Source of the DNA: Siphonodentalium dalli | Taxonomy: Eukaryota; Mollusca; Scaphopoda; Gadilida; Siphonodentaliidae | DNA: 64,000 nucleotides | Reading direction: 5' to 3' | Assembly (NCBI GenBank): GCA_032622095.1 | Contig: CP136064.1 | Span: forward strand, 255,233,863 to 255,297,862 | Shown: in pieces, positions 2,740 through 41,047 of the stretch | Numbering within the stretch: position 1 is the first letter of the stretch | Layout of the letters: every line of letters begins with the position of its first letter | Translations under genes and position numbers: made by a program | The notes under the pieces: model-generated | What the model was told of the DNA's origin: nothing | The model's input: only the letters and a program-made list of their open reading frames with translations | Database searches by the model: none

Positions 2740-2776
<37 letters not shown>

Positions 2777-20559: not shown

Positions 20560-21772
20560 TTTTTGTATTTAGAGTTATATCCACGCCTCTGCCCCTAGTT
20601 GACCCAGTGACCCAATTTGGAAAAAAAATCTGAACTCCAGTCACCCATTAGGTCCCTCCGTACCAAATATAAGTTAAATCGGCCCAATCTTTATTAAGAT
20701 ATCATTCTAAGAATTACTATGAGGAATAGAGTTATGGCTCTGGTTTCTCAACTAATCAACCTGGTGACCTCATTTGAACAAATCTGAACCCTAGTCATTC
20801 AAGAACCCTTCATGCCAAATATAAGCTAAATCGGACCAATGGTTCTAGACAAGAAGTTGTTTTAAGAAATACTATGGAGGATAAGAGTTATGGCCCTGGC
20901 TTCGCAACTATTTGACCTAGTTACCTGATTTGAACAAATATGAATGGGAGTCACCTAGGGAACATCCACACCAAATATGAACCCATTCCGTCCAATGGAA
21001 TCAGAGGAGAAGATGTTCAAAGAATTGTTGACGGATGGACGGACGACGGTGTGATGACTATAGCCAGGGTTTCCGCTAGGGGTAGGGGAATGGGGCCGGT
21101 AGCCGTCAAGGGGAAAAATCCAGGTAAAAGTAGCCTGTTTTACTTTTAGCACTGGTTGAACTACTTTCGTTATATCGGCCAATAGAATCGTGTGAGAGTA
21201 GAAACGGCAGATTGTTTTGTTCCATTTCTGCCCAAGTGCCAAGCTATCAAACCTTATACATGTACCTGTAACTTTAAAACTAGTAAATTTATTAGATATA
21301 TATTAATTTACGAAGTACATTTACAGAAAACCAGTAATTTTAATCCCGAGTTAAACGTGCTCGTTAATGTTAAAAGACTCAATGTGGAAGACACAGCAGA
21401 TGTTTCGGATGCATAACGTAATCGGAATATATTAAGGCTGATTACATACAACCGCAACGTAACTAACCGACCTCAAAGGCATAGCTCCTAGCGATGTCAG
21501 TTCTGATCACTTCCTGTTTCAATTTAACAACGCGTTTAGAGTGTACACTCACAAGATATAAAATAAATTCACCTTTTAAAATTCCTTAGTACTATTCCAA
21601 CAAAATTCAGAAGTTTTAAACATCTTTATACCTTTATAGACATGCAGTATGTCCTGGGGTATGGCAGGAGGGGAAAACTTGGCGAGGGGAACGGGGCCGT
21701 CAAGGGGAGCCTGTGCCGGTATAGCGGAAACCCTGCTATAGCTCCACCGGAGACTTCGTCTCAGGTGAGCTA
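20560..21772 (+). mobile_element. Hairpin-ended tandem-repeat element, split by a hAT element
   Basis: Three units of about 156 bp (GAGTTATG-type blocks near 20572, 20728, 20884), then GACGGATGGACGG. The terminal hairpin is separated from the body by the insertion 21065-21735 and resumes at 21739-21772. Same family as 19040-19429, in the same orientation. Confidence 0.75.
21065..21735. mobile_element. hAT-like element (671 bp)
   Basis: Terminal repeats CAGGGTTTCCGCTA and TAGCGGAAACCCTG are perfect inverses. CTATAGC is duplicated at 21058-21064 and 21736-21742, and the uninterrupted site is seen at 19393-19399. Only 7 bp of duplication are visible rather than 8. A subterminal GC-rich block with CCGTCAAGGGGA recurs near both ends. 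Related, decayed sequence is at about 41646-41700. No transposase. Confidence 0.7.
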
Positions 21773-21970
21773 AAAAGCATATTATGCTATTCAGAACATA
21801 ACCCCTTGTTTGACTAACAACCACAATAAATGTCCAGCATCTTCACTGGTTTGTAAGGTGCATCTGAAATAAAAAATCTGACCAGTTCAAAATACAGAAT
21901 GCGTTGAATAAATATTTCTCTTTTAACATGCTACGGAAGCTCAGCCATTCATATGATACAAACAAAAACA

Positions 21971-23791
21971 AGAGATGGACTGTCGTCCGGTACATACCCC
22001 CTAGTGGCATACCGCCTAGTGTGGGCATATCTATAACTTATGACTGCTATACTCAGACAGATGGACCCAAAAATCAGCAATTCATATAAACGAAGATGAA
22101 TAACTATAGCACAAAAAAACAAAACAAAACAGTTAAATGTGCCATTAAATGTCCTCCTAGTGGTGAACATCCATACAAAATTTAATTGAGATCCGAGCAT
22201 TACTGTTCAAGTTATGACCTGAACAGACAACAGACGGACCAAAAAGCCAACATGTACAGATAAACAAAGATGTATAACTCTAGAATGGAAAATCCGAAAA
22301 AAACGATGGAACCCTCTTTTTAATGTCCTCATAGTAGTGAACATCCCAGTCTGGGTGAACGTCGACTCTATATTTGAAATATAGAGTCTGGAGCTTATGT
22401 AGCAAAAACCATTTCTATTCAGCGAACAGCTTCCCCAAAATGACGTCATGGATTTAAAAAAATACATCGATGATTGACAGGTGTCCCCACGTGTTATTTG
22501 TTGTGCTTCGCAATAGCAGATAATATTTGTGTGCGACTATTCTTTTTCGGGAGATGAACTCGCTGCATCAACCGGAAAGCTGCATCCGAGAGCAAAAAAT
22601 AAGGTCGTCATCAAAAATGATGCTTTAGAACTATTTAAAAGCATAAAATTAAGTCATTTCCTCGGTGTTAACTTTCAGATGATTTTTTTACGACAAATAA
22701 TTTGATTTGCAAACCATGGTACAATCATCGACGTATATTGATCGATGGTACAATAAAGTAAATCAAATACACGGACATAAGTGAGTTCTATTTATATTTA
22801 TGGGAGGCCAAGTTGGTACCATGCGCATGCCTATCTATCAGGTCTAGCACATCCTTCAAATTAATCCGAATCGTACCGAATATATAATTTCGAAGCCATT
22901 GTTTCTGTCTGCAAGCATCGCTTTCGATCGGAGAAATTCCGCTCTGTTACTATATTTAGAGGTGACATTATGGGAGTCTCCACCCACTGACACTTGTTTA
23001 TTAGCCCATACGGTTTCATTGGACGGAAAATAATTTACGCAATCAATCAGATTACGGAATCCCGACGACTTGGAAATGAAATAGCGATGTTATCCGTCAG
23101 ACCTTATATTCAATGTTGTAATGAATATTTAGGTATGAGTTTACTCAGACTGTGAACATCCATACCAAATTTCATTGAGATCCCAGCACAACTGTTGAAG
23201 TTACGACATGAACAGACACCAGACAGACCAAAAAGCCAACATTTCCAGATAAACAAAGATGAATAACTCTAGAATGGAAAATCCGAACAAAACGATGGAA
23301 CCCTCTATTGAATGCCCTCATAGTAGTGAACATCCATACCAAATTTCATTGAGATCTGAGCACTACTGTTCATGTTATGACATGAACAGACACCAGACGG
23401 ACAAAAAATCCAACATTTCCAGATAAACAAAGATGAATAACTCTAGAATGGAAAATCTGAACAAAACGATGGAACCCTCTATTTAATGTCCTCATAGTTG
23501 TGAACATCCATACCAAATTTCATTGAGATCCCAGCACAACTGTTGAAGTTACGACATGAACAGACACCAGATGGACAAAAAATTCAACATTTCCAGATAA
23601 ACAAAGATGAATAACTCTTAGAATGGAAAATCCGAACAAAATGATGGAACCCTCTATTTAATGTCCTCATAGTAGTGAACATACATACCTAATTTCATTG
23701 AGATCCGAGCACTATTATTCAAGTTATGACATGAACAGACATCGGACGGACGGACGGGTGCAAAACAGTATACCCCCTAAAAAGGGGTATA
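21971..23791 (+). mobile_element. ~1.8 kb tandem-repeat element with terminal hairpin
   Basis: Units of about 174 bp carry GAACATCCATACCAAATTTC and AACAAAGATGAATAACTCTA; they recur near 22165, 22338, 23153, 23328, 23502 and 23675. 22470-23120 is a non-repeated interior of unknown nature. Repeats of GACGGACGG lead to a hairpin TATACCCCCT...AGGGGTATA at 23769-23791. The insertion splits the flank duplicated from 19430-19880. A perfect 12-bp stem (GACTCTATATTT/AAATATAGAGTC) lies at 22365-22389. Confidence 0.7.
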
Positions 23792-24030
23792 ATGAAAGTA
23801 TCGACCATTGTGTTTTTATGTACGAACCAAAGAGCACACTCTGAAGCAGAAATTTTTCAAGCACTTTGCTGTTCTGTGGTCCATTAGACCACCCACAGCA
23901 CCGGAAAATTGCTAATTTTATTGCCAAAATATGTTGGTGTCGCTTGTCATGACACATCCAATGACTGCATTTGAGAAAATGAGACAAATTAGCTCTTTAT
24001 CATTCACTACGCAAGTCGCAGAATGACTTT

Positions 24031-25640
24031 AAACATTTATTAGTGATTTATATATGTATCTTACCTGCCGATATAACCATAACATGCACGAATGATACAT
24101 TATATGAACATCACATGATGTCTTGTACAGGCAGTCTCTCCGGTCTTTATTTATTTTGTCCGGCTGCAGTGATATATGACTTGAGTTAACAGTCCTTCTT
24201 GTGGCATAGATGAGACGCATGTTTGATGGTACTCGGTGATGAACAAAGTAGGCGAATCGATGTGCTGCAACAGACTGTACTTTGGCAACCCATCTCACAC
24301 TCAACTTCCCATATTCATCTCGCACCTGTGCAGTTCAAAAATGGCAACCAGATGAAGTTCTAAGGATGTTACGCATAATTGACTGCTGTAATGAGGCCAG
24401 TTTTCTCTCGCTCGGGACAGAGTTAAAAATCTGTGGCATTATCACCTGTAACAAGAAAAAATAAGACAGATACATTTGTGTATGGTTGACTCTATCGATA
24501 TTAATTTTATGAAGTCTCTCAATTAAATAAGACAAAAAGAGATGCCACGCAAACCCCCCTTCTTTTCCCCCATGTATGCCTTGGCTATATAATACAAAAT
24601 GGCTGCACCACCCCCCTTCATAACATTCTCCTGTGATTGTTTACAATTAATAAAGTGTCCCCTAATATAATATATACTTACTTGCGCAGTGCAGGCACAC
24701 AATCTTCAATATTCAAAATCTTAACAGGTTTTTGCAGGTGGAATAGTGCCCTATATTTAGTAACATACACATGTTTTGGTTTAAATTTGATTTTTGGAAA
24801 TGAATCCGATGTCTGAGAAAGGGAAAAGGTGTTTTATAAAGAATATACAAATAATCCAATGTTGACATGAAAATACGGAAGATTAATCGACCAAAAATAG
24901 TTAATTTCACATGCTTCTTAAAGGTAGCATAACACGATTTCTGGCCATTTTCACCATTTTGAGGGGGATACTGCATCCGCTGCACTATGGTGATTAATAA
25001 ACAGCACATGAGTGCTTGGTTAAAAGATAGAGAAATGATCAGAGCATAACCTTTTCGCAGGAATTGCCTCACAAGTTGAATTATCTCCCTTAGATTGACT
25101 TTGAAAAATATTAATTTTAACCATTTTTTGGCTGAAATTGATTGTCTTCGTTAACATAGCTAACGATGATAGAGCGCATGCCAGTTTATAACCATCTTGT
25201 GAGTCGATAGATAATCAAATATATTAAAAAAAGAAAACAAATGTTATATCAATTTTTAAATTTTGTCTTCCAAGTGCAGACGACTGTTTTCAAGGGAGAG
25301 AAATCAAGATCTTTTCCGGTGGAGTACTACCACACAGAGCTGGCCGACATCGAATTCCAAAAACATACATCAAATTCAGACATCTCATTTTGTATACTAT
25401 GGTACCTTTATAAAATAATTAAACCATCAAACCATTACTGCCAGGTATAACAGAGGCTAAACTGACAGTTATAGCTCTTATTTTGTAGACTTAAAATCAT
25501 ATTTTCAGCCCTCCTACAAGCCAAACAAATTGTACACACCAATGCCAAGCGGTACCCTAAACTATGATGCCACACGGCCCATTTTATACATATATGGGCA
25601 TAGAAACAGGAACTTTAGGAAGGGGTCTGATTAATCAACT
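24031..25640. other. Mostly unclassified region with possible exons
   Basis: Besides 24682-24812, two stretches look exon-like. Minus strand 24343-24450 follows TTTCTTGTTACAG and codes for 36 residues to a stop. Plus strand 25280-25410 follows TTTTGTCTTCCAAGTGCAG and codes for a hydrophilic peptide with FPVEYYHTELADIEFQ. Neither matches a family I know, and they point in opposite directions. 25410-25520 is a repeat shared with 17009-17110. Confidence 0.3.
24682..24812 (-). CDS. Candidate internal exon, unknown gene
   Basis: On the minus strand a strong acceptor (TTTTCCCTTTCTCAG) precedes 131 bp that are open in only one frame, followed by a perfect donor GTAAGT (24676-24681). The 43 complete codons give a basic peptide with FPKIKFKPKHVYVTKY and then VKILNIEDCVPALR. 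I do not recognise it. The exon starts in phase 0 and leaves two bases for the next exon; neither acceptor-like tract at 24448 or 24326 continues it without a stop. It could be a host exon, an exon captured by a mobile element, or chance. Confidence 0.4.
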
Positions 25641-25735
25641 AGTGTTTGATTAGCTCTTGTCAACTAATGGACTCCTGAATATCCCAAACAATTTCAACAC
25701 TAGATACAAGGGGTACGCATCCAAGATGCTATGTC

Positions 25736-26307
25736 AAGTTTATTGGCAGTCGAAAAAGACTGCCAATAACTTGGCAATAAGGCCCACACAAGGCTCAAAA
25801 TGTCGGACAAACCTGGTTTTCAAACTCGTCCGGATGAGTTATTGTTGCAAGAGACTCATACATGTATATCAAATATGGTTTGAATCAGTTAATATTTAAT
25901 TGAGTTATCGCACTAACAGTGAAAAACATGCTAAAAATAGACAAAATAAGGTCCATAAATCCAGGGACAAAATTTGGACAAACCTGGTTTTCGAACTCGT
26001 CTGAGATATTGTTGCAAGAGACTCATATATCAAATATAGTTATAATCAGTTAATATTTGATTGAGTTATCGAGCTAACAGGTGATTTAATTGCAAAAAAG
26101 TCATCAAAGATGGAGAACTGTTGTCAAAAAGTTTGGACGTGATCCATTTTCTACAGGCAGTAAATAGTTATTGGGAGCAACTCATATCCCAGAATGATTT
26201 TGAATCCATTCACAAATGTCAAAGTTATAAGGCATTCTTTAGGTCCGCCCACCACCGCCCGCCCGCCCGCCCACCGACCATAAGTCGAGTTTTTCAAAAA
26301 CTCGACT
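25736..26307 (+). mobile_element. Hairpin-bounded tandem-repeat element next to the Helentron gene
   Basis: 25736-25772 folds as a 15-bp stem (one bulge) with ATTGGCAGTC, loop GAAAAA and GACTGCCAAT. Two units of about 172 bp follow (GGACAAACCTGGTTTTC near 25803 and 25977). A (GCCC)n tract leads to a perfect 12-bp terminal stem AGTCGAGTTTTT/AAAAACTCGACT with a single-base loop at 26283-26307, then AAAAATAG. This is the same architecture as the other Pearl/HINE-like elements here, in a different family. It lies 127 bp from the end of the giant reading frame. Confidence 0.7.
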
Positions 26308-26433
26308 AAAAATAGCAAAAAAAGTATAGGGATCTTAATGTTGTTTTATACAGTTTTATATTGAATAAATTTGAAAATAATATAATATGTAATTGAAATA
26401 TACCTATAATTTTAAGGAATAATTAAATGAACT

Positions 26434-29400
26434 TCAACTTACAGTGGTGTTTACATCAATGGCAATTCCCTCGTGATAACTATAATATTCAGAGAGTCTG
26501 CTGCAAGATACAGAGAGTTCTCCTTTAAAGTAGACATGATCCAACAGAGTGCCGCCTTCTGTTGTAGGGAACTTGATAATTTGTTGAAAACCTTTGCTTT
26601 CAATGAGTGTACTTAGAGAAGAATTTTGTAAGTCATTCTGATTAAAGTCGCCTATCAGGAGCACATTTGTGTAATGTTCAGCTACTGCACAAATCTCATG
26701 TATTTTTGGCGTGAACACTTTTACCGCATATTGTGGAGGCCTGTATATTACAACCAAGAGTAAATCTAAATTGTAATTGTATGTGCAAATGTGTTCGAGA
26801 TTGATGAGACCAATCTGAGTTCTGCGGAAGTCTGATTCATTGCTCACATAAACCCCAACACCACCATGTTCTTGTTTTTTCATTTTCTTAAAAAAATTTG
26901 TGGACTCGTCAAAACATTCAGACCTGGCAGTGTGATGAAACTCATAATCATCTATATCATATCTCAAACTTCCTATATCGCTGGGGGCAAGCCACGTTTC
27001 AACGAGAGCTATACAGTCAGCAGTAAAAATTCTTTGATCTGCTTTAAGATCTTCAAAATGACATGATAAACCTTCAATATTGTGCAAAATGATTTTTAAA
27101 CATTGGCCAGATGAGGTTTTCTCAGCTTCAATGAAATCTGGCATTCTATTGAGTGCTTTTGAGACTTTTTCATCACAATAGATCTTATCAGTGATTTCAT
27201 GAGATTCACAATTTATTATTGAAAGTCCTTCAAGTGATGTCACTCGACTCAATGCAACATAGGCCATACCAGGGGAGAATATATTTTTCAGTGAGATAAC
27301 AGCCTTGTCCAGTGTAATTCCTTGAGCCTTATGAATTGTACATGCATATGACAACGTCAATGGGAACTGTTTCCTCACAGTTACTTGGCTACTTCCAATG
27401 TGATGTTCATCTGGTACAATTTCAATCGTTCGCATTTCGCCTTCTAGCCCAGAAAGTCTTTTCCTTCCAACTCTTTCATTGTCAAATCTGATATACACTC
27501 TTTTCATATCTATATCAACATTTTCAAAGTTTTTCAAATCTATCACAGTTCCAATAACGCCATTCACCAAACCATCATCAATATCTAGATTCTTCACCAA
27601 CATGACTCTGCAGCCTTCAGCTAGGACAATGGAATGAGGCAAGTAGGTTTTCAACTGCTTTGAGGTACAGGGTCTGTTTAGTCTAACAGTAACTCCAGTT
27701 GCCTTATTTGTTTTGTAATCCTGAGCATCAATGGTGAAAAGATTACTGCAAACTTTCTGCAACATTTTTGTGTTGTGATCGCCGACCTCGGCTTTTGTGC
27801 TGGCTAATAGTAATGCTTCTCCAACATCTCTATTTATACAACCAGACAACATATCAACATCCTGTGGCAACAGACGTTCAGCTCGATATTTGGTTCTACA
27901 CCTGTTTAGCATGTATGCAAAATCAGCATCATCTTTCTGTCTCATGATTTTGTCAAGAATGGCAATGGAGAAGCGTTTGTCCCAGAGTTTACGTCCAGGC
28001 ACCCTTGAAAATAGTTTGTCTTCCTCTGAGACACAAACAGGTGGAATCTGATAGAAGTCACCTACTGCTATAACAGAAACTCCTCCAAAGCAGATTTTGT
28101 CATTTCCACAAGTTCTCTTTATCTGGTTCAATCTCTCGCTCACATAGTGCAGTAGATTATATTTGATCATAGAAATTTCATCTATTATCAATAGGAGAAG
28201 AGAGCTTAATTTACACCTCATGGTATTCATAGTGTTTTCTTTTAGAGGCACACATCTTTCACCGAGAAATAATGGAATCGAGAATGCTGTATGTAGAGTT
28301 GTACCTCTAATGTTGAAGCTTGCACTACCAGTGGATGCTGTCAACAAAACAACAGTGTCATCTGGGTTGTTGGATATTTGGGATAGCAGCCGGTTCATTT
28401 CATAATACAGACATTTTATCAGAAGAGATTTTCCAGTGCCTGCTCCACCAGTTAAATGTAGAAAGAATTGTTCTGGATTTTTTCCGTGAATTTTATCAAG
28501 GCACCAGTTGCGTACTTTATGAAATATTTTGCTTTGTTGCTCATTCAGAGTTCTCATCAGTGGCAGAATTTCACTTTTATCATAGACATCATAATGTCTT
28601 TCATTCCTAGATTCAGATGGAATATTGCCAAACTCATTTTTGCAATCAATATTTTCATCCTGTCCAACTGTTGATACTGGCATATTTGAATCATCCAATC
28701 TGTCTACTTCTGACTCAGGACACATATTAGCCCATGCATCTTCAGGATTGACTTTGTGGATAGAATCCTGGGCATTATCAATTGCACTAGCATTTGCATC
28801 ATAATGCTTTCTGTTGTCCTCCACTACAGATTTCACAGTGCAAATGTCATTCTCTGATCTAATGTTTCCAGACTCATAAAAGTCCATGTACAATTGAAAT
28901 GGACTTGGCTTCAGTTGTTCTTTATTACGATGGGGCAGGTACAGTTGTAGCATGCTTTGGTAGAACTTCTCGCGTTCCTTTTCTAGTACAAATCTAGGAT
29001 ACTTTATGACAGCTGGACTTGACTTTGTTCTCTTTTGAACATATCCAAGTTCATTCTGTAGTCGGAACACAGTTGCTGTTATTTTATCCTCAGCACAATT
29101 CTCAGCATTCTTGGGAAGTTGACTTTTACAGAGAACTCTATACTCTGAACAAAATCTAGCCAAACACATTGACTTGAACTCAATCAGCAGTGGTCTTGCT
29201 TCATATCTCTCAGTGATGTTAATCATCCAAACTCGTTCAGAGTCTTCGTTTATTTGATCCAGAGGAAGACTTATTCGGACAGGATTCTCCCCAAGAGGTA
29301 TCCACACAACATTTCTTGAACATTCTTTAAGGGGCAGTTCACAAACTCTGAAGACACTTTCAATGGCCGACACATTTCGCTTGTTTAGGTATGTTGATCC

Positions 29401-32400
29401 AAGCTTTCTCATTGTTTTCTTAGCGGACAAATTCCCTTTCTCAGCTTCTTTTTTAGTCTGTTTCAAAAATGATCCCATTGTTTTCTCATTCTTTGAGATG
29501 TAGCTAATGATATACACAACACAACTGTATGCATCCAATACATACTGAATGTCAAGATTGGCATTCCAGCATCTTGAGAGATATGCATTGTATTGATTAG
29601 TCCACATGTCTTTAGGTGATCTTTTGAGAACAACAGTATTGCGTGTAGACAATCGGCTCAAAGCTACTTCCAAGTCAGACTGGTCTACATTAGCCTTATC
29701 AAGTAGTTCCTTGCAACTTGTTATCTCCTCATTCTTATCTAGCAGCAGTTTCCATAATGACTCAACTAATGTTTTTGCATTTTCCTTCTCGGTTTGATGT
29801 TCTTCAGTTTCCATACTCTTCGCTCTAGCAATGAATGACTCCTCAGATGGTGGCCTGGGAAAATTAAACCTGCAGGTTGTTCCTCGTTTGCGACAAGATG
29901 TTGTGTGGTTCTTGCTATGTTGTTGCACACTTTTAACTATGTCAAACAATTCTGGATCAGTTTCCTCATCTGGTGTAAGACAGGTTATGTATTTATCAAT
30001 GAATGCAACCACAAGAGCATCATTGTCAACATCAAACTGAGGCGCATTATCGATCCAAATCACACAATGCCAATGCGGTCTAAACTTGTCAGAATTTTCT
30101 TCCCTGATGAAGAAATCTTTAACTTTACCGATAGGTTCGGACTCTGACATAATCACCTTTTTGAAAAACTTGTGGAATCTATCTGAAAGCATTCTTGCAA
30201 CAGTCACAGGATTTGATTTCAGAATTTTGCACTTTTCATCCCAGTCCAGTTTTTCAAAAGTCCTTGTGTCATTCTGTTGAATCAAAATAGTTTTTATAAT
30301 CTCAGGCCATCGGAACTCAGCTGTAGAGAAACTTGTGAACCACGTTGGTATACCAACCATTCTTAACATAGCAAATAGATCTTTCTGGCAGTTTTCCCAG
30401 TATGCCGGACTACTTCTTATGGTCTTGAGAAATCTGTATGCCTGATCACTATTGAGTAGTTCGTCTCGCTTCTCCTTGTCTCTCAGATCACTACCAGTTA
30501 TCTCTGATCCGTCACTTGACTTAGCATTAGATTTTCTACAAGCAATAGAAATCTGGGACAGTACCTGCTGAAGCTCAGATATATACTGACTGAAGAATAT
30601 GTAATCTGTGTCCCTCGCAAACCTATTATCCACATGCATCAGTCTGTGCTTAAAATATTGTGCCAATGTTAACCGCACTTTTCGTTCACTCTTAAATGTA
30701 TGCTGCCCTTCAGGAAATTGTTTTGGAAATGCTTTACCTTCTATGTCCTCATCACCGAGCATGTACACTGGTTTGTTTCCTTCTGCTGGTGCAACATCAA
30801 ATATCTCATCACTGTGGCTATCAAGTACAAATTGACCGATATCCTCTGGTTGCAGACATGAATCAACAGGAAATGCAGAGTCGCGAGCACCATGTTCATT
30901 CTCAGAATCACTTGCACTGTCTGATTTATCATCAGTAACATCCTGTTCCATGTCAGATTCAGAATCAGTCGAGTCTGAGCTTTGGTCATTGTCCATGTTT
31001 GCTTCATTCCATCGTTCATCAATTGTTATATCCTTGAAAAACTTGTTGTGCCTTTTAAGATAGGACAAAGCAGTGATAACCCTCTTTGTATTCACATATT
31101 CATATTCATAATAACCCTCATAGCACATCTTCCGTTTCAATTTTACTCGAAGTAACGAACTTGTGTTTTCGGGCCTTGGCAAGACATCTGCAGTTTTACT
31201 CATATCAGTAGGGACACAAACTACTGAACCTCGAATTCCTTCTTGTGAACCTCTGGGTAACTTAACGATCTTTTTGAAGGGAAGTAGTGGTGCTATGAGG
31301 TGGCATTCTAGTCGGTTTATATTTGCGATCTCTTCAGGTATTGGATCAAGTTCCATGTCATTAACAAAAGAACCAGAGGGAATCTTTCCTTGCTGAATTT
31401 TGCGATGACAAGTATAGCAGATCCAGAGTTTGCTGCATGGCCTCTCAAGAAACTGACAATTATTAGGGCATTCATCCGAGCATTCATGCAAATACTTCTT
31501 AGTGATGCACTTCTTAGCAATAGCATCAACATTGGAACCTTTTAGACTATAGTTATCTAAATTACATCTCGTCACCTGGTTTTGAAACAAAACACGGTTG
31601 CAGCTGGCACATACATACTCAGGTCCATGTGCGGTTTCCTCCCTGAAGGATTTTATTACATTGTCTATTATTGACAGGTGTTGTATCCTCTTTAACATTT
31701 GACTCTTTTTGGCAAGTAGTAGGTTTTTTCGATATGCACTAGATATTCTGTACTTCCTTTTGATGCTGTTAATGAGATTATTCCTGAACTGAGAATTGTT
31801 TGTATACTTGGCTTTGGAATAACTCATAAGTTTCTTTCTGAACTCACTCTGTGTGGCATACTTGGCTTTGGAATAACTCATAAGTTTCTTTCTGTACTCG
31901 CTCTGTGTGGCATACTTGGCTTTGGAATAACTCATAAGTTTCTTTCTGTACTCGCTCTGTGTGGCATACTTGGCTTTGAAATAACTGATCTTTTTCTTTC
32001 TGAACTCACTCTGTGTGGCATACTTGGCTTTGGAATAACTCCTAAGTTTCATTCTTAACTCACTGTTGGTGGCATACTTGGTAGCAGAACGTGTCTTCAC
32101 ATCAGATCTAAATTGTTCCTGATTTTTGTACTTATCTTTTGAATCCATGCGTGCCCTGAGCCTGAATTCCTTGTTATTTTGATATTTATGTACAGACTTG
32201 GCTTTCTTTTCCAGTTTCAATGCTTTGTTAGTAGCATAGTTCTGTTGTTCCCTTTCATTCTTAGCTGTTTTGTGAGAAGCCTGGTATAAAGACACATATT
32301 CATTGCGACTTCCTGTTTTATTTTGATTTCTCACCTTCTGCCTTTTATGGTGAACAGTAAATCTGCTTTTGTTTTTTGTCTTTCGTTTTTTCTGAAACGA

Positions 32401-34521
32401 TGGTTGTTTGAATACTTCGGGATTATCGGTCTGATTAGTGAGTCCTATTTCACAATACTTGTCAGCTTGTAATTTCTGATATGATGGATGGTCCATTATT
32501 TTGGGTTTACAAGTCTGATCATCGCAGCTGGTAAGAGATTTACTTTTTCTCACAGAGTCTTGTCTGACAGCCAATACAACATTGTAGTGATTACCATTTA
32601 AATTCTGTAAAAATATCATTTCAGGATAAGATATTCTTGAACTGTTAAAGCTCTTTGGGGGATATTTCAGCCATGAAGTTGTGTGTATCATGATATAAGT
32701 ATTGAGAAGATCTGCCATAGCAAGTACTTCCATTTCAGTTGCCCAGGTACCTTCATCCTTCATCTTGGTATCATGTAGATATTGTGTGATGCTTGAAAAA
32801 GTAGGTCTCAACCACTTTTGAAATTTCAAACTTCTATCCTGCATGTGCTTGATGACTTTACCTCTAAGGTCAAGGTGAAAGTTCTCAGAACCTGTTAAAG
32901 CATAAGATATGGCTCTGAAGAAGCAATTGCCATCTCCATCAATCTGTCTTGTCAAGAAGTGGTCACTAATCAATTGACAATGTCCATATTTTATTTCATC
33001 ATTCATAGTGAGTCCTATTTCATGACACTTCACAGCACGAGATTTGTCACGCAATGGGTTAAATATGACAGCACTAGCATCAGTTTGTCCAGTTATCACT
33101 AGATTATTCTCAGGGTCATTAGAAGTTTTAACATTGAGACCAGTGAGGTCAATCTGCTGTCTCCCAACCTGATTCATTGACAGAAGTAGTTCACCAAAAT
33201 GCTCAGCAACTTCATTCAGGTTATTGAACTTCAATAAAACACTGGTTCCATCTCCATCTACTAGGCCTTGATCGTTACGTGCATGAGAATCAATCATGAA
33301 GTACTTGTTTCCTATACCAGTTTTGCCAATTATTACGGTGAATATCAGGAATGTTGCAAAACAATAATCAGAGACTTCAAAAATTGACTGTAATGCATCT
33401 ATCATTGGGATAATACCCCAACTAATCTCATCTTCATTTGATGAAAATACAGAAGCTTGAACAGGGATTTTGATATCAAACAAGAATTCTGTATCAAACA
33501 CTGTGTATATTTTTGGAAGTTCTTGAACGTCAAGAAATTTTAAATTTATTAGTGTGATCTTCTCCTGATGTGGTAACTTTTTTCGTTCATTAATGACAAA
33601 CGAATACATCCTTGAACCATGATTTATCACTTTGTCCATGTCAGACGTATTCCACAAAAAAATATTTTTAATGTGAGAGTAAGCAGCAGCTAGTAAACAG
33701 ACAGCGGCACATTGGTTACCAGCAATTAACCCGAATAATGCTGTATTACCCTGGCTATAATTACCTTGGATTGAAGACATGTCCATTGCACATTCATCAT
33801 CTTGATTCAGTGGTTGACTGTAGGTGCATGTTTTGGTACTGACGATTTTGGCATTATTGATTTCATATTTATCGCAGTCCTGTTTTTTTGGTGCAATGTT
33901 ACTCAAAACAACGCTGCATGACTTGAGAAGGCCATGAGGTATATTTCCAACATCAAAAGAAGCAGATTCAAACTTCGCACCTGAACTCTCACTTACATTT
34001 GTATAGCCACTTGTCCTATTGGCATTTGTATGATTTGCACTGTTTGTAAGATTAAGTTGGGTTTGTGTGTTAACACTGTTTGGGTTTGTATGGTTGATAA
34101 GACTTGTTTGGATGAATCGTCCATTGCGGGTTTGCATGTTTTCATTCTGAAGTTTGCTTTGCCTGGTTTGTGGTTTGTTTGTAGTTTGTTTGTAGTTTGG
34201 CAGATTAGCAGTTTGGCAGATTGGCAAATTAGCAGTTTGGCAGATTGGCAGATTAGCAGTTTGGCAGATTGGCAGATTGGCAGTTTGGCAGATTGGCAGA
34301 TTGGCAGGTTTGTTCGTAGGTTTGTAAGCAGGTTTGTTCGTAGGTTTGTTCGTAGGTTTGTTCGTAGGTTTGTTCGTAGGTTTGTTCATAGGTTTGTTTG
34401 TAAGCAAGTTCGTAGTTTGCTTTTTACCTTTTGTTTGCTTCTGTTCCTCACGTTTCTTCGTCATTAGTCGTCTGATCCTCTGTCTTCTCAGATTGTCGCT
34501 TACCACTCTTTTCTTCGGCAT
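26434..34521 (-). CDS. Helentron-type Helitron Rep/helicase/endonuclease polyprotein, apparently intact
   Basis: Rolling-circle transposase-helicase. I start at ATG 34521 (2695 aa) because the 15 codons upstream are a pyrimidine tract ending CAG, an acceptor rather than protein. Numbers below count from the upstream ATG at 34566 (residue 1); subtract 15. Low-complexity repeats 51-130; C76-like papain-fold protease 270-465 (GNQCA Cys286, IDSHAR Asp426/His428); OTU protease 541-665 (DGDGNC Cys548, His660); 18-residue repeats 774-945; Cys-rich DUF6570-like region 985-1135; Rep 1298-1695 with RPHWHCVIWID (His1498, His1500) and YIISYISK (Tyr1685, Tyr1689, Lys1692); PIF1-like helicase 2000-2445 with GGAGTGKS, LIIDEISM, GDFYQIPPV, YACTIHKAQG and YVALSRV; endonuclease (EEP fold) 2488-2706 with GDFN and LLDH. 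The usual SDH there reads SYH. The last codons overlap a donor site. No stop or frameshift in 8 kb suggests recent activity. Confidence 0.93.
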   Translation of the reverse strand: MPKKRVVSDNLRRQRIRRLMTKKREEQKQTKGKKQTTNLLTNKPMNKPTNKPTNKPTNKPTNKPAYKPTNKPANLPICQTANLPICQTANLPICQTANLPICQTANLPNYKQTTNKPQTRQSKLQNENMQTRNGRFIQTSLINHTNPNSVNTQTQLNLTNSANHTNANRTSGYTNVSESSGAKFESASFDVGNIPHGLLKSCSVVLSNIAPKKQDCDKYEINNAKIVSTKTCTYSQPLNQDDECAMDMSSIQGNYSQGNTALFGLIAGNQCAAVCLLAAAYSHIKNIFLWNTSDMDKVINHGSRMYSFVINERKKLPHQEKITLINLKFLDVQELPKIYTVFDTEFLFDIKIPVQASVFSSNEDEISWGIIPMIDALQSIFEVSDYCFATFLIFTVIIGKTGIGNKYFMIDSHARNDQGLVDGDGTSVLLKFNNLNEVAEHFGELLLSMNQVGRQQIDLTGLNVKTSNDPENNLVITGQTDASAVIFNPLRDKSRAVKCHEIGLTMNDEIKYGHCQLISDHFLTRQIDGDGNCFFRAISYALTGSENFHLDLRGKVIKHMQDRSLKFQKWLRPTFSSITQYLHDTKMKDEGTWATEMEVLAMADLLNTYIMIHTTSWLKYPPKSFNSSRISYPEMIFLQNLNGNHYNVVLAVRQDSVRKSKSLTSCDDQTCKPKIMDHPSYQKLQADKYCEIGLTNQTDNPEVFKQPSFQKKRKTKNKSRFTVHHKRQKVRNQNKTGSRNEYVSLYQASHKTAKNEREQQNYATNKALKLEKKAKSVHKYQNNKEFRLRARMDSKDKYKNQEQFRSDVKTRSATKYATNSELRMKLRSYSKAKYATQSEFRKKKISYFKAKYATQSEYRKKLMSYSKAKYATQSEYRKKLMSYSKAKYATQSEFRKKLMSYSKAKYTNNSQFRNNLINSIKRKYRISSAYRKNLLLAKKSQMLKRIQHLSIIDNVIKSFREETAHGPEYVCASCNRVLFQNQVTRCNLDNYSLKGSNVDAIAKKCITKKYLHECSDECPNNCQFLERPCSKLWICYTCHRKIQQGKIPSGSFVNDMELDPIPEEIANINRLECHLIAPLLPFKKIVKLPRGSQEGIRGSVVCVPTDMSKTADVLPRPENTSSLLRVKLKRKMCYEGYYEYEYVNTKRVITALSYLKRHNKFFKDITIDERWNEANMDNDQSSDSTDSESDMEQDVTDDKSDSASDSENEHGARDSAFPVDSCLQPEDIGQFVLDSHSDEIFDVAPAEGNKPVYMLGDEDIEGKAFPKQFPEGQHTFKSERKVRLTLAQYFKHRLMHVDNRFARDTDYIFFSQYISELQQVLSQISIACRKSNAKSSDGSEITGSDLRDKEKRDELLNSDQAYRFLKTIRSSPAYWENCQKDLFAMLRMVGIPTWFTSFSTAEFRWPEIIKTILIQQNDTRTFEKLDWDEKCKILKSNPVTVARMLSDRFHKFFKKVIMSESEPIGKVKDFFIREENSDKFRPHWHCVIWIDNAPQFDVDNDALVVAFIDKYITCLTPDEETDPELFDIVKSVQQHSKNHTTSCRKRGTTCRFNFPRPPSEESFIARAKSMETEEHQTEKENAKTLVESLWKLLLDKNEEITSCKELLDKANVDQSDLEVALSRLSTRNTVVLKRSPKDMWTNQYNAYLSRCWNANLDIQYVLDAYSCVVYIISYISKNEKTMGSFLKQTKKEAEKGNLSAKKTMRKLGSTYLNKRNVSAIESVFRVCELPLKECSRNVVWIPLGENPVRISLPLDQINEDSERVWMINITERYEARPLLIEFKSMCLARFCSEYRVLCKSQLPKNAENCAEDKITATVFRLQNELGYVQKRTKSSPAVIKYPRFVLEKEREKFYQSMLQLYLPHRNKEQLKPSPFQLYMDFYESGNIRSENDICTVKSVVEDNRKHYDANASAIDNAQDSIHKVNPEDAWANMCPESEVDRLDDSNMPVSTVGQDENIDCKNEFGNIPSESRNERHYDVYDKSEILPLMRTLNEQQSKIFHKVRNWCLDKIHGKNPEQFFLHLTGGAGTGKSLLIKCLYYEMNRLLSQISNNPDDTVVLLTASTGSASFNIRGTTLHTAFSIPLFLGERCVPLKENTMNTMRCKLSSLLLLIIDEISMIKYNLLHYVSERLNQIKRTCGNDKICFGGVSVIAVGDFYQIPPVCVSEEDKLFSRVPGRKLWDKRFSIAILDKIMRQKDDADFAYMLNRCRTKYRAERLLPQDVDMLSGCINRDVGEALLLASTKAEVGDHNTKMLQKVCSNLFTIDAQDYKTNKATGVTVRLNRPCTSKQLKTYLPHSIVLAEGCRVMLVKNLDIDDGLVNGVIGTVIDLKNFENVDIDMKRVYIRFDNERVGRKRLSGLEGEMRTIEIVPDEHHIGSSQVTVRKQFPLTLSYACTIHKAQGITLDKAVISLKNIFSPGMAYVALSRVTSLEGLSIINCESHEITDKIYCDEKVSKALNRMPDFIEAEKTSSGQCLKIILHNIEGLSCHFEDLKADQRIFTADCIALVETWLAPSDIGSLRYDIDDYEFHHTARSECFDESTNFFKKMKKQEHGGVGVYVSNESDFRRTQIGLINLEHICTYNYNLDLLLVVIYRPPQYAVKVFTPKIHEICAVAEHYTNVLLIGDFNQNDLQNSSLSTLIESKGFQQIIKFPTTEGGTLLDHVYFKGELSVSCSRLSEYYSYHEGIAIDVNTTVS
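26437..26442 (-). other. Candidate 5' splice donor at the end of the giant frame
   Basis: The frame ends ...AACACCACT followed by GTAAGT and then TGA. GTAAGT is the consensus donor. If used, the coding exon would end at 26443, right after the last endonuclease motif, and the protein would continue in a downstream exon that I cannot identify. Confidence 0.45.
31732..32247 (-). repeat. 54-bp coding tandem repeat (18-residue units)
   Basis: About nine units of the type YATQSEFRKKLMSYSKAK, four of them nearly identical (31815-32040) and degenerating towards both ends. The strongly basic, probably helical stretch links the OTU domain to the Cys-rich region and could bind DNA or carry nuclear localisation signals. 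Confidence 0.9.
34177..34416 (-). repeat. Coding minisatellites (NKPT and ANLPICQT units)
   Basis: A 12-bp unit coding for NKPT or close variants is repeated about nine times, followed by a 24-bp unit coding for ANLPICQT repeated about five times. Both keep the frame open. They lie in the disordered N-terminal region before the first protease domain and are expected to vary in copy number. Confidence 0.9.
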
Positions 34522-34545
34522 CTGAAAAAGAAAAAGAAAGAAAGT
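34522..34545 (-). other. Candidate 3' splice acceptor before the giant frame
   Basis: On the minus strand TTTCTTTCTTTTTCTTTTTCAG runs directly into ATGCCG. The long polypyrimidine tract plus CAG is a strong acceptor, and the ATG begins a basic, nuclear-targeting-like N-terminus (KKR and RRQRIRR clusters). Confidence 0.6.
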
Positions 34546-35643
34546 GTCAATGATAATGTAGCTCAATTTTGAGGATAGATGTCATATGTGTTACATTCTA
34601 TCGAGCAATTATGATCGCAGAAAGTTTAACTGATTAACTAATACTGAATATCAACATGAAGAGACACATATAATTATGGATTTAGGTAGTAGATGGAATG
34701 GCAATATATGTAAAACTATAAAGTTGCTGGAGGAATTGCAGCAACAACCCCTTTATGATCAGATAATGAACACTATTACTGTTGTCAGAATATCTATCAT
34801 GTTTGTGAAAATAAGATCAAGTCTGGATTTTGTCCCATGATAGCCATTGGCATCCATGTTTTTTAACAGTTTTCGGGAAAATGGTAAGCTCCAATCTAGA
34901 AGTCACCCCACAGATCCCTATTAAGTTTGGTGACGATCAGAGAGGGGTGTGGCCTGTAGGTGTGTAAAATAATTTAGTGATGCAAAGAGTACAATCAAAG
35001 ATGGCTGCCGGTAGCTATAATTACATTGCTGGTCTTTATAAGGTATATACCAAATTATTTAGTTAAAGTAATTACTAGTGCCCTTATAAGACATCTCATG
35101 TAAACTTTTAATAATGCTCCTAGGGTAAAGTTACCAATATATACAAATTTCTACTCCGATAGTTCAGTTATTTGGTTGCCTATAAACAGACAAACAAACA
35201 TATGGACAAAATTGAGTTTCATCAGTATAGATTTCCTATTTCGAAATGTTTTATCTTTTTTCCAAATTTGTTTGCCTCGCGTCCACCTATTATGCTGTGT
35301 ACATATTAAAGTTACCTTGGTTTAATGTGCAGAAAATTCTACGATGTTATGATCAGCAATACTGTTACTATCAGCAATACTGTAACTGCAATACTGTAAC
35401 TGCAATACTTTATATAACTGCAATAGTTCTGTATCTGAAAATAATTGGAGCATGTATGTAAATGTACGGAGATATGTCAAAGAACCTTAAAGGCCAGAAG
35501 GTATTAGTGCAAAGGGACAATATAGTCTGGGAGCTGACAGTGTGCCTTTGAACCCCCCCCCCCCCCCATCGGGATTTAACTCCACTCCACTCATTTTGTT
35601 CCTTGTTATGTCCCACAACTTTTACGCCATGTTAACTTGAAAT
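34541..35643 (+). mobile_element. Partial tandem-repeat element starting in the Helentron leader
   Basis: From 34541 (AAGTGTCAATGATAATG, then TAGCTCAATTTTGAG) the sequence matches the starts of elements at 35645, 35843 and 37751. It includes degenerate AAGATGGCTGCCGG repeat sequence near 34995. The start lies only about 20 bp upstream of the giant gene's ATG, inside the putative acceptor tract. 35040-35643 is mostly unclassified, with imperfect CAGCAATACTGTAAC repeats at 35355-35425 and a C-run at 35552-35567. Confidence 0.5.
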
Positions 35644-37464
35644 GAAAGTGTCAATAACAATGTACATGTAGCTCAACTTCGAGGAGGAATAATTTCTTGT
35701 GTTACAGTCAATGGAGTGATTAGGAATGGGAGAGTTGATCTGTCCAAGTAATACTTAGTGTTGACATGAAGAGATATATATAAAGTAATATCCAAGATGG
35801 CTGCTGGTCAGTCTGGAGTAAACTACATACTCACATATAAATGAAAGTGTCAATGACACTGTAGCTCAACTTGGAAAGGGAATAATTTAATGTATTACAG
35901 TCAATGGAGCGATTAGGAATGTGGAAAGTTGAATGTCTAATACTAGTTAAAAGACATGAAGAGAAAAGTAAAATCCAAGATGGCTGCTGGCGGCCATGTT
36001 TTCGGCCGAATGACCCCAAAATGAGTCGTTCCCATCTACATGTCATCGTTAACATCCATGACAAATTTTATGACGATCAGACTAAAGGTACGACCTGTAG
36101 CCCATGCTAAAGAATTTAGTCATACAAAGAGTAAAATCCAAGTTGGCCGCTGGCGGCCATGTTTTTTGGCCGAATGACCCCAAAATGACTCGTTCCCATC
36201 TACATGTCATTATTAACATTCATGATAAATTTTATGATGATCAGACTAAAGGTACAACCTGTAGCTCGTGCTAAAGGATTTAGTCATACAAAGAGTAAAA
36301 TCCAAGATGGCTGCTGGCGACCATGTTTTTTGGCCGAATGACCCCAAAATGACTCGTTCCCATCTACATGTCATTATTAACATTCTTGACAAATTGTATG
36401 ATGATCAGACTAAAGGTACGACCTGCAGCCCGTGCTGAAGAATTTAGTCATACAAAGAGTAAAATCCAAGATGGCTGCTGGCGGCCATGTTTTTTGGCCA
36501 AATGACCCCAAAATTACTCGTTCCCATCTACATGTCAATATTATCATCCATGACAAATTTCATGATGATCAGACTAACAGTACGACCTGCGGCCCGTGCT
36601 AATGGATTGAATTTTGAAATCCAAGATGGCCACTGGCGCCCATTGTTTTTTGTCCGAATGACCCCAAAATGACTCGTTCCCATCTACATTCCAATTTCAA
36701 CAGCCATGACAAATTTTATGATGATCGGACTAAAGGAAAGATCTGTAGCCCGTGCTAAAGGATTTAGTCATACAAAGAGTAAAATCAAAGATGCCTGCTG
36801 GCGGCCATGTTTTTTGACCGAATGACCCCAAAATGACTCGTTCCCATCTACATGTCATTATTAACATTTATGACAAATTTTATGATGATCAGACTAAAAG
36901 TACGACCTGTAGCCCGTGCTAAAGGATTTAGTCATACAAAGAGTAAAATCCAAGATGGCTGCTGGCAGCCATGTTTTTGGGACAAATGACCCCAAAATTA
37001 CTCGTTCCCATCTACATGTCAATATTAACATCCATGACAAATTTGATGATGATCAGACTAAAGGTACGACCTGTAGCCCGTGCTAAAGAATTTAGTCATA
37101 CAAAGAGTAAAATCCAAGATGGCTGCTGGCCGCCATGTTTTTTGGCCGAATGACCCCAAAATTACTCGTTCCCATCTACATGTCAATATTAACATCCATG
37201 ACGATCAGACAAACAGTACGCCTTGTAGCCCGTGCTAATGGATTGCATTTTGAAATGCAAGATGGCCACTGGCGGCCATGTTTTTTTACCGAATGACCCC
37301 AAAATGAATCTTTCTAGTCTAAATGTTGATGTCAACAGCTATGACAAATTTCATAATGATCCGATGAAAGGTACGACCTGTAGACTGCATTGTTGACGCC
37401 TTACACACACACGGACGACAAAGCCATGGCAATAGCTCAAACTTTACAAAGTAAAGTTGAGCTA
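35644..37464 (+). mobile_element. ~164-bp tandem-repeat element with terminal hairpin
   Basis: It begins with AATGAAAGTGTCAAT...GTAGCTCAACTT (a second start at 35843). About nine units of roughly 164 bp follow, marked by CAAGATGGCTGCTGGC and AATGACCCCAAAATGAC. It ends with ACACACACGGACGAC and a hairpin TAGCTCAAACTTTAC...GTAAAGTTGAGCTA at 37433-37464, then AAAATAG. The 5' AGCTCAACTT is the inverse of the 3' AAGTTGAGCT, as expected of short terminal inverted repeats. Frames of 60-70 codons here are repeat shadows. Confidence 0.75.
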
Positions 37465-37747
37465 AAAATAGTCGGTATGAATCTGAGTGTATGTTTACAA
37501 CAGCTTGCTGCTGGTGAACTATGATCAGATGTAAATATTTACTTCTTGATACAGGTTGCAACTGCTGGCGATAAATTAACGAAAACAATTTAGTCATCAC
37601 GAGTCGCTGCCTTTTGGTCAATATAAAACTGACGATGTGCGTGTTGTCAATAGGGATATAATAATTGTTAAAATAGCTACTTTGAGTTCAATTATCTTAC
37701 ATTTCTATTTTATCACCCCACCGAAGTGTTTCACTTACTTTAAACTA

Positions 37748-38620
37748 ATATAATGAAAGTGTCACTGTAGCAACTTTTGAGAGGGAATAATTTTCTCTGT
37801 TACAGTAAATGGAGCGTCTACAGATGGGAAAGTTGAAATGTCTAAGAAATACTAGATGTCAACATGAAGCGATATACTGATATAAAGTAAAATCAAAGGC
37901 GGCCATGTTACTTTATTGAGTTTCGAACAAAAAATTATGTCTCACACCTTGAGGTCACCCAGAAGATAAATCAGAAGTTTGGTAATGAACGGATGACAAA
38001 GCTGGGTTGTAGGGTGTGCTGAAAGATTTAGTGATATGAAGAATAAAATTCAAGATGGCTGCCGACAGCCATGTTATTTGGCAGAATGACCCCAAAATGA
38101 CTTGTTCCCATCTTCATGTCAATGTCAACATCCATGACAAATTTAATGAAGATGAGACAAACAGATGAACCTGCATCCCGTGCTAATGGATTTTGCAGAA
38201 AGATTTAGTCAAACAAAAAGTAAAATCTAAAATGGCCACTTGTGCCATGTCTTTTGGCCAAATAACAACCAAAATTACACGTTCCCATCTACATGTCAAC
38301 GTCCATGACAAATTTTATGATGATCAGACAAACAGTATGGCCTGTAGCCCATGCTAATGTATTTAATTTTGAAATGGCCGCTAGCGGAGATGTTTTTTGG
38401 CCGAATAACCAAAATAAATCATTCCCGTCTATAGAGACCACCCTGTTGATCTGTATGAAGTTTGCTGATGATCAGATTAGGGATGTGGTCTGTAGGCTGT
38501 GCCAAAGGATTTAGTGATGAAGTTATGACGTGAAAAGGCATCGGACAGACACACACACAGAGTCCCGGATGGACAGGTGCAAAGCGTTATACAACTCTTC
38601 TTTTTTTAAAAGGTTATAAT
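37748..38620 (+). mobile_element. Second, more decayed copy of the ~164-bp tandem-repeat element
   Basis: It starts AATGAAAGTGTCACTGTAGC at 37751, has degenerate units, then an ACACACACAGAG tract. It ends with a weak hairpin around 38587-38619 (TTATACAACTC...AAAAGGTTATAA). 37465-37747 between the copies is unclassified. Confidence 0.6.
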
Positions 38621-39421
38621 TATCCTAGAATACATCTTTTTTCAGTAGTTTAATAAAAGCCCATTTCATTTGACTAAATGTATTTATGTTCATTCTATTG
38701 TCAATATATCCAACAACAGAAGGTCAGTTTGATAAGCAATTGATCATACAAGATCTCATATATAGTCACTAAATCTACTAGTAATTGATCAATAACAATA
38801 GCTGTCATAATATACTGTGATACAGTGTTTTGTTCATTTCGAACCAGACTAAAATATTCTGCGATGATCGATTCATAACTTTTTAACACGTTGAGTGCGG
38901 GCTACGTGTTATCTCGTACTACACTATTTTCTATATTCCAGGGTGCCACTACGAGTTATCTCGTACTTTATTATGGGGTCTAGATATTCTGCTGCAGAAA
39001 TTTAAGAAATTTAGTTCCCCACATAACGATTTCATCCATCTTAAGAAGCTCAAATATATGTGAGATATGAGTGGTGCCACTGCATCTGTGTAATGAAGGA
39101 ACCTAATTTGGGCCGAAAGTATGGTTATACTGACGCAATGGCCCCTAATTATATTCTGCCGTCTGAATTGGTATTTTTTTTTATAAGATCCACAAAAGCC
39201 CCTAACATTCTGCACTACAGAATAACAAGTTAGTTCGTGTATTTGAATAGAAGACATTAATTTTGAAGTAGCACGATGACACATGTAAGATTGTATTTTT
39301 TAAATGTACGAGATAGTTCGTTGTCGGCACCCAGCGCAACCCATGTAAACCTTATGAATTTGATTAAATATTATTCTATGGGACAAGGGTGTCAGAAGCA
39401 GTGAACTTGGGTAAAGAGCCA
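38621..39421. other. Unclassified spacer
   Basis: AT-rich. The phrase GTTATCTCGTACT occurs twice (38909-38921 and 38954-38966). No gene or element recognised. Confidence 0.35.
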
Positions 39422-39436
39422 GGGGGGGGGGGGGGC

Positions 39437-39478
<42 letters not shown>
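39422..39478. repeat. G-run and (AT)n microsatellite
   Basis: 14 G at 39422-39435, then an uninterrupted AT dinucleotide run to 39478, directly before the tandem-repeat element. Confidence 0.95.
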
Positions 39479-39479
<1 letters not shown>

Positions 39480-39481
<2 letters not shown>

Positions 39482-41047
39482 CACCATAGATATGAACCCA
39501 TTTGACCTGATGGTATTTGAGATGTTTAAAAGAATTAATATGGAGGGAAAGAGTTATGGTCCTGGCTTCACAATTATTTGACCCAGTGACCTCATTTGAA
39601 CTTATCTGAATGTGATTCACCTAGGCAACATCCACACCAAATATGAACCAATTTGGCCTGATGGTATTTAAGAAGATGTGTAAAAGAATTACTATGGAGG
39701 GAAAGAGTTATGGCCCTGGGTTCGCAACTATTTGACCCAGTGACCTCATTTTAACAAATCTGAACCGCAGTCACCCAAGGATCCTTCATACCAAATATGA
39801 ACCCATTTGGCCCGATGGTATTTGAGAAGTTTAAAAGAATTACTATGGAGGGAAAGAGTTATGGCACTGGCTTCGCAACTACTTGACCCAGTGACCTTAT
39901 TTGAAAAATTCTGAACTCCAGTCAGTCACCCAACGATCCTTCATATCAAATATGAACCAATTTGGCCTGATGGTATTTGAGATGTTTACAAGAATTAATA
40001 TGGAGGGAAAGAGTTATGGCCCTGTCTTCGCAACTATTTGACCCAGTGACCTCATTTGAACAAATCTGAATGTGAGTCACCTAGGTAACATCCACACCAA
40101 ATATGAACTCATTTGGCCCGATGGTATTTGAGAAGAAGTTTAAAATAATTACTATGAAGGGAAAGAGTTATGGCCCTGGCTTCGCAACTATTTGACCCAA
40201 TGACCTCATTTGAACAAATCTGAACCCTGGTCACCCAACGATCCTTCATATCAAATATGAACCGATTTGGCCTGATGGTATTTGAGAAGATGTTTAAAAG
40301 AATTCCTATGAGGGGAACGACCCAGTGACCTCATTTGAACAAATTTGAATGTGATTCACCTAGGCAACATCCACACCAAATATGAACCCATTTGGCCTGA
40401 TGGTATTTAAGATGTGTAAAAATAATTCCTATGAGGGGAACGAGTTATGGCCCTGGGTTTGACCCAGTGAACTCATTTGAAAAAATCTGAACACCAGTCA
40501 CCCAAGGATCCTTCATACCAAATATGAACCCATTTGGCCTGATGTATTTGAGAAGTTTAAAAGATTTACTATGGAGGGAAAGAGTTATGTCCCTGGTTTC
40601 GCAACTATTTGACCCAGTGACCCCATTTGGCCTGATGGTATTTGAGAAGATGTTTAAAATAATATGGAGGGAAAGAGTTATGGTCCTGGCTTCGCAACTA
40701 TTTGACCCAGTGACCTCATTTGAACAAATCTGAATGTGAGTCACCTAGGCAACATCCACACCAAATATGAACCCATTTGGCCCGATGGTATTTGAGAAGT
40801 TTAAAAGAATTACTATGGAGAGAAAGAGTTATGGCCCTGGCTTCGCAACTATTTGACCCAGTTACCTCATTTGAACAAATCTGAATGTATGTCACCTAGG
40901 CAACATCCACACCAAATATGAACCCATTCGGTCTTATGGTTCCAGAGGAGAAAAAGTTTAAAGAATTGTTGGACGAATGGACGGACGGACAGATGACCGA
41001 GGAGCGATGACTATAGCTCCATCGGAGACTATGTCTCAGGTGAGCTA
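39480..41047 (+). mobile_element. Long Pearl/HINE-like element, ~10 tandem units
   Basis: Units of about 153 bp with GGAAAGAGTTATGGCCCTGG, CTATTTGACCCAGTGACC and CCAAATATGAACCCATTTGG. Several are truncated (around 40310-40450 and 40615-40680). It ends GGACGGACGGAC and a hairpin at 41014-41047 (TAGCTCCATCGGAGAC...GTCTCAGGTGAGCTA). Same family and orientation as 19040-19429 and 20560-21772. Frames inside are shadows. Confidence 0.8.

Follow-up and report, generated by a model that had tools for sequence, protein, structure and literature searches.

A probable Helentron protein with VTD and OTU protease domains, and its unevenly diverged copies, in the genome of the scaphopod Siphonodentalium dalli

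Introduction

Why should a transposable element keep two unrelated protease domains in the very protein that is expected to move it? The question is raised by a 64,000-nucleotide stretch of the Siphonodentalium dalli genome, here called the window, in which an intact Helentron transposase with a papain-type and an OTU-type domain had been predicted from the letters alone. Helentron structure was described in Mob DNA in 2014, with OTUs carried occasionally (PMC4067079), and a 2019 review lists OTU and AP endonuclease for animal Helentrons (PMC6431247). VTD domains in Helentrons, 121 of them also with OTU, were reported by Erven et al. in 2022 (PMC9741609); activity was shown for zebrafish Helentron VTDs, one of which came from a VTD and OTU element, and the transposon OTUs were stated to be untested. 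The pairing of the two domains, presented as a surprise in the original prediction, has been in print since that year together with VTD activity assays (PMC9741609).

The open frame and its domains

The intact frame of 2.7 kilocodons, predicted with no strand given, was found at the expected position on the minus strand, and a plus-strand reading of 26434-34521 was rejected, having stops throughout. Started at a TTG, the same frame runs 34566..26434 on the minus strand and encodes 2,710 aa; residues are numbered throughout with this TTG as 1, so that the ATG is 16. The features of the frame, in window positions, are as follows.

34521..26434, minus strand: single open frame, 2,695 aa from the first ATG, open upstream to 34581
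34166..34419, minus strand: N-terminal low-complexity tandem repeats (Pfam PT), the most variable part between copies by polymorphism per 50 codons
33142..33759, minus strand: VTD, a peptidase-C76-like (herpes-tegument-type) cysteine protease domain, residues 270-475, with Cys286, Asp426 and His428
32557..32964, minus strand: OTU protease domain, residues 535-670, with Asp545, Cys548 and His660
31804..32081, minus strand: in-frame 54-bp tandem repeat in a linker, 5.1 copies of an 18-aa repeat, from tandem-repeat finding
31012..31392, minus strand: DUF6570 (PF20209, E 4.9e-20), with a stretch rich in Cys that precedes it and takes in its start
29467..30657, minus strand: Rep (HUH) region, from Pfam Helitron_like_N and motifs
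27187..28548, minus strand: PIF1-type helicase, from Pfam PF05970 and a PDB PIF1 match
26452..27084, minus strand: C-terminal EEP/AP-type endonuclease of weak score, from Exo_endo_phos and LINE-1 endonucleases

Along the whole chain the Pfam order is OTU, DUF6570, Helitron_like_N, PIF1, Pif1_2B and a weak Exo_endo_phos. The short motifs fall in the same progression, with GNQC at 283-286, DSH at 426-428, DGDGNC at 543-548, NGNH at 657-660, HWH at 1498-1500, YIISY at 1685-1689 and GGAGTGKS from 2040. An open frame of 2.7 kilocodons with ordered domain matches is not chance.

The Helentron character of the protein, as predicted, is supported by its Rep, helicase and nuclease parts. Helitron_like_N is matched in the whole chain at E 2.7e-23, and the HUH and two-Tyr motifs of Rep are present, which we take HWH and YIISY to be. 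The PIF1 helicase is matched at E 1.3e-28 by PF05970 in the whole chain and at E 1.2e-35 by PIF1 in the PDB. The C-terminal EEP endonuclease scores weakly: PF03372 (Exo_endo_phos) gives E 0.0062 in the whole chain and, with the C-terminal 231 aa alone, E 4.2e-5 at 23.8 bits, 0.7 bit short of the cut-off of 24.5; the region matches LINE-1 endonucleases at E 0.03-0.3 and is located as expected for a Helentron. We are fairly confident that the frame encodes the protein by which a recently multiplied Helentron is replicated and transposed, and that its proteases are of a catalytically competent kind.

Two unrelated protease domains with invariant residues

The presence of two unrelated protease domains in one chain was borne out by the domain matches. 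OTU is found directly by Pfam in the window protein (whole chain, E 6.8e-9); a Pfam search of the whole chain gave no row for PF04843 at E 10. The VTD piece alone reached PF04843 (herpesvirus tegument) at E 0.0012, with 18.9 bits against a cut-off of 25, and as a single sequence it matched PDB 8add at E 0.11 in an alignment that takes in both its Cys and its DSH motif. When ten relatives were combined in a profile, 8add, which is a zebrafish Helitron VTD, was matched over nearly the full domain length at E 4.9e-8, and structures of OTUD5, OTUD1 and OTUD3 at E 1.6e-8 or better. The papain-type region of the original prediction thereby finds a cysteine-protease match by sequence to a solved structure.

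The alignment behind this profile comprises the window and nine divergent members from the same genome, which are 38-81% identical to it. PF02338 (OTU) matches all ten members, and PF04843 matches nine of them at E up to 0.1 (best 1.6e-6), the window itself being below the cut-off. Cys286, Asp426, His428, Asp545, Cys548 and His660 do not vary in any of the ten, and we take these six to be the catalytic residues, in part on the basis of PMC9741609.

Copies in the genome and selection on the proteases

The genome comprises 2.23 Gb in nine contigs (C1-C9), with the window on C4. A core probe, window 30000-30600, found 27 places, 16 of which are 98-100% identical (the window included) and lie on C1-C6; six others are at 91-92%, two at 70-71%, and three short ones at 66-67%. 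The element has multiplied recently, and the possibility that no similar copy exists elsewhere, which would have told against the prediction, is refuted by these matches. When residues 240-700 were searched in the same genome, 73 match rows were obtained, the best 92 of 307 candidates having been scored. At least 28 of these rows carry VTD and OTU in one stop-free frame at 39-100% identity, a row being counted if it starts at query residue 24 or earlier, ends at 427 or later and contains no stop. With the window included, 15 of the 28 are at 94-100%, three at 81-82% and ten at 39-45%; their frames are of at least 2,500 aa in 21 cases and of 740-2,239 aa in seven. The remaining 45 rows are partial, broken or weaker, and several are pieces of one copy. 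As a source of relatives, viral contigs gave one stretch that matched a pattern, and no relative by tblastn.

Ten near-identical copies were taken with about 10 kb on each side. Nine of them retain an unbroken frame of 2,677-2,790 codons, and the tenth, C6a, is split into 2,056 and 630 codons; at least one other near copy, C3:126966206-126967582, is degenerate, with several stops. Similarity to the window extends, with gaps, over most of the 20 kb taken per copy. Copies C3a and C3b are 99.985% identical over 20 kb (after removal of hits that were under 500 or 1,000 bases, below 90% or over 7 kb from the diagonal), while C5a and C6b, on different contigs, share 27 kb at 99.7% identity and 2.4 kb of the 3' array at 99.5%. 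Both pairs may be segmental duplications, judging from such similarity. Frames of 416-2,063 aa that match the OTU part only, at 32-34%, were also seen at C7:100.2 Mb (two), C3:265.65 Mb, C2:85.79 Mb and C8:122.87 Mb; these five rows are perhaps OTU-only Helentron lineages.

Both protease domains are under purifying selection, the dN/dS ratio from a Nei-Gojobori-type counting script being below 1 in all computed pairs. Between the window and the 82% subfamily, VTD gave dS 0.31 and dN/dS 0.26, and OTU dS 0.52 and dN/dS 0.16; 200 codons of the Rep core, compared with three members of that subfamily, gave 0.04-0.08. Against three members at 39-45% identity, VTD gave 0.29-0.30 and OTU 0.19 and 0.22, with one not computable, these ratios being rough as dS is saturated. 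Overall, the window was compared with four of the nine members, with dN/dS of 0.16-0.30 where computable (VTD 0.26-0.30, OTU 0.16-0.22). Furthermore, seven pairs within or between other lineages gave 0.09-0.57 for VTD, the extremes on very few changes, and 0.20-0.34 for OTU. The claim that removing ubiquitin matters to the element gains indirect support from this selection together with the invariant catalytic residues.

Surroundings, satellite-like arrays and element limits

Outside the frame, the window contains the following features.

17000..54467, minus strand: body common to other copies, with gaps, mostly 92-99% outside repeats; neither limit is a proven element end
54467..57711, no strand assigned: satellite-like array upstream of the body
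10697..16066, no strand assigned: satellite-like array downstream of the body
1..10110, minus strand: 5' portion of the adjacent copy, which is arranged head to tail and has its frame outside the window and its core probe match at C4 255222788

The second core at C4 255222788 lies 41 kb away on the same strand, so that the window contains parts of two head-to-tail copies, and protease domains of a 43% lineage follow on the same strand 15.7 kb past the window's end. A short open frame with a PHD finger (window 7032-7301, plus strand, Pfam E 6.1e-6) sits between blocks common to the second and the first copy.

The arrays flanking the body have periods of about 0.2-2.1 kb. Samples of 200 bases taken outside four copies (C1a, C1b, C2 and the C5 copy at 132 Mb) showed that the sampled copies adjoin satellite-like arrays which are near-identical between contigs. 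Three of 23 samples at about 1-12 kb out were not array-like (C2 at +8 and +11 kb, C1b at 5' -10 kb), and at 15-80 kb out four of 17 were array-like, one of these over half its length. Since the array-like fraction falls with distance, the arrays end within tens of kilobases. The array is also present at sites with no listed frame match, for example C2:93.34-93.39 Mb and C3:117.70-117.74 Mb, among the best 40 of 2,535 candidates. Either the array is a satellite that receives insertions of the element, or it is a repeat carried by the Helentrons.

Both candidate limits of the element were rejected. Window 54467 was discarded as the 5' end, because nine of ten five-prime stretches remain alike beyond this point upstream, the window copy being the only one to break there. 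Window 17000 was discarded as the 3' end, as eight of 14 three-prime stretches continue alike; of the others, the window and C5b share a different insert, and four loci of a high-copy family differ. Between the two candidate ends, later overturned, a search for subterminal inverted repeats gave only matches of 7-8 bp, and the copies compared revealed neither the ends of the element nor a target site nor empty sites. That the element is autonomous, as predicted, is likely. The high-copy 3' family (40 of 4,886 candidates scored) was considered as a set of non-autonomous partners; this idea was dropped, since the stretch in common ends within the body and may represent a separate repeat.

Other repeats were noted in the window. 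The insert at 16150-16999 (right limit provisional), beginning CAGGGTTTCC, is common to C5b at the same place and absent there from eight other compared copies. Stretches 78-87% similar to 57750-60750 lie about 11-19 kb from protease domains of other lineages (C8:4.87 Mb, C3:184.1 Mb, C4:112.5 Mb), and this part may belong to the 3' region of a neighbouring Helentron, by its similarity to them; its two best matches, at C6:178.0 Mb and C9:107.3 Mb, have no such protease neighbour among the matches listed. Finally, a repeat at 52900-53609 recurs at many other places (the whole probe gave 6,604 candidates, of which 40 were scored) and overlaps an open frame of 208 aa for which Pfam gave no convincing match.

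Uneven divergence along the gene

The near copies do not differ evenly along the frame, and one part of the locus is nearly the same in all of them.

21200..31120, minus strand: near-identical core, consisting of the Rep-helicase-endonuclease half and 3' non-coding DNA, from 400-base tiles in ten copies

Most 400-base tiles of this core are 98-100% identical, with lower values in tandem repeats (about 23.2-24.0 kb) and a few single tiles; hits under 150 bases were dropped, and 21.2-22.0 kb is covered in eight of the ten copies only. Apart from those repeats and tiles, the high identity extends about 5 kb downstream of the frame, whereas the remaining flanks, like the protease half, are more different between copies. 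Mean synonymous differences among 11 copies are 0.085 for the N-terminus, 0.049 for VTD, 0.050 for OTU, 0.063 for the linker and 0.034 for DUF6570; they then fall to 0.002 for Rep, 0.008 for the helicase and 0 for the nuclease, C6a entering by its longest open piece only. With 27 non-synonymous pair differences against 0 synonymous ones in the 11 copies, pN/pS of the nuclease is undefined. The drop is located at about codon 1150: before it, stretches of up to 150 compared bases hold 5-21 polymorphic bases each, and after it 0-3 per 150. This profile covers ten copies, with C6a left out; the N-terminal repeats are higher in it, and one stretch has only three comparable bases.

In pairwise tests, 53 of 55 pairs differed more in VTD-OTU than in Rep-EEP (Fisher p below 1e-3 for each, the pairs not being independent), and the remaining two had zero differences in both regions; where C6a was one of the pair, residues beyond 2000 were dropped. 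When the window is compared with the ten other copies, VTD-OTU differs at 0.9-3.1% of bases. Another lineage shows a different pattern, with 4-8 differences per 603 bases in VTD and 24-40 per 396 in OTU (p 5e-7 to 4e-11 in three of three pairs), and in a further lineage two tested pairs gave p 0.006 and 2e-5. Between subfamilies the divergence is more even, with dS of 0.31, 0.52 and 0.46. Block exchange or gene conversion between copies would be the simplest reading of this pattern, because selection on the protein cannot erase synonymous differences from one half.

Proposed mechanism and alternatives

The domain content suggests how the protein could work. As in the family, the HUH/Y2 domain of Rep would nick and join DNA ends, the PIF1 helicase would peel off a strand for rolling-circle copying, and the C-terminal EEP nuclease would probably cut the target. 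VTD and OTU would most likely be active deubiquitinases that strip ubiquitin from their own protein or its partners, and such stripping could keep the transposition machinery from degradation or silencing by the host. A suggestion of this kind, that transposition proteins are protected from degradation, was made by the authors of PMC9741609. Shielding of the transposition machinery by two active deubiquitinases is proposed here tentatively, with a chance that we put a little under even.

Viral papain-like proteases process polyproteins, and the two proteases could likewise release Rep, helicase and nuclease as separate products from the 2.7-kilocodon chain, as the original prediction had also considered. 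Both are located close to the N-terminus, in a chain that is very long and has low-complexity linkers; this would suit such a role, which has been proposed for Helentron OTUs (PMC4067079). However, a search for Gly-Gly-type sites found such pairs only at 2040, 2161, 2568 and 2671, in the helicase and nuclease parts, with no LxGG-like site in any linker, and characterised relatives act on ubiquitin (PMC9741609); processing is unsupported by these data and seems very improbable. That the domains are catalytically dead, persisting as binding modules or leftovers like the inactive VTD proteins of insects, of which there are many (PMC9741609), is likewise most improbable: in its favour, near-copy pN/pS is higher in VTD (0.29) and OTU (0.30) than in Rep (0.10), with 0.47 on few changes in the helicase, but the catalytic residues are invariant in all ten members and dN/dS is below 1 for every computed pair. 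Deubiquitinase shielding is kept as the working proposal for the proteases.

A different kind of alternative concerns how the copies arose. They could be units of a satellite-like region whose number rose by unequal exchange and segmental duplication and not by transposition through this protein, a view in line with the 20 of 23 short samples at about 1-12 kb outside four copies that are array-like, with same-strand neighbours at distances of 41 and 54 kb (and of 32 kb within the 92% subfamily), and with two copy pairs, C3a/C3b and C5a/C6b, that are similar past the body. Against it stand copies on contigs C1-C6 with intact frames under purifying selection, as well as frames of 2,538-2,864 aa retained at six of ten divergent-lineage places; kept open frames argue against purely passive copying, which would not maintain them, and we consider this origin rather unlikely. 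A similarly low probability is given to a view that joins the arrays to the uneven divergence, by which the copies would form a recombining population anchored in shared satellite arrays, with the Rep-helicase-nuclease half repeatedly overwritten by conversion and the protease half diversifying against the host. Blocks would then be exchanged at different places in different lineages, with VTD homogenised and OTU diverged in one of them, and conversion of the Rep-helicase-nuclease half would possibly be started by the element's own nicking.

Known systems and significance

The element of the window is a well-preserved new example of the known VTD and OTU kind of Helentron, and not a new system. 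The zebrafish DrT2 Helentron resembles it in having one active VTD with an OTU and in belonging to the group with a C-terminal AP-type endonuclease (PMC9741609), but it is another element, likened by description and not by sequence identity. VTD2 of zebrafish DrT1 is the 8ADD structure matched by the VTD profile at E 4.9e-8; DrT1 itself combines two VTDs and lacks an OTU (PMC9741609). In Helentrons of mite, Culex and Drosophila, Rep/helicase is likewise fused to a C-terminal AP endonuclease, with OTU occasionally (PMC4067079); their ends are defined, and they show subTIRs, a 3' palindrome and a TT preference, features not established here. Cg_HINE of the oyster is also Helentron DNA with tandem repeats spread through a genome (PMC7492417), but it is non-autonomous with satellite-like central repeats, in contrast to the coding copies flanked by arrays in S. 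dalli. No mention of the uneven divergence or of the array setting was found in the available part of PMC9741609, and prior publication is possible.

In conclusion, the pairing of two deubiquitinase-like domains is real and conserved in this genome, where at least 21 long frames of several lineages are at hand for testing why it is kept. What is added to published work is the natural variation within one genome, in which VTD and OTU lineages occur beside five rows that match OTU only. The strongly uneven divergence along the gene is a further addition, and it suggests that blocks are exchanged between copies.
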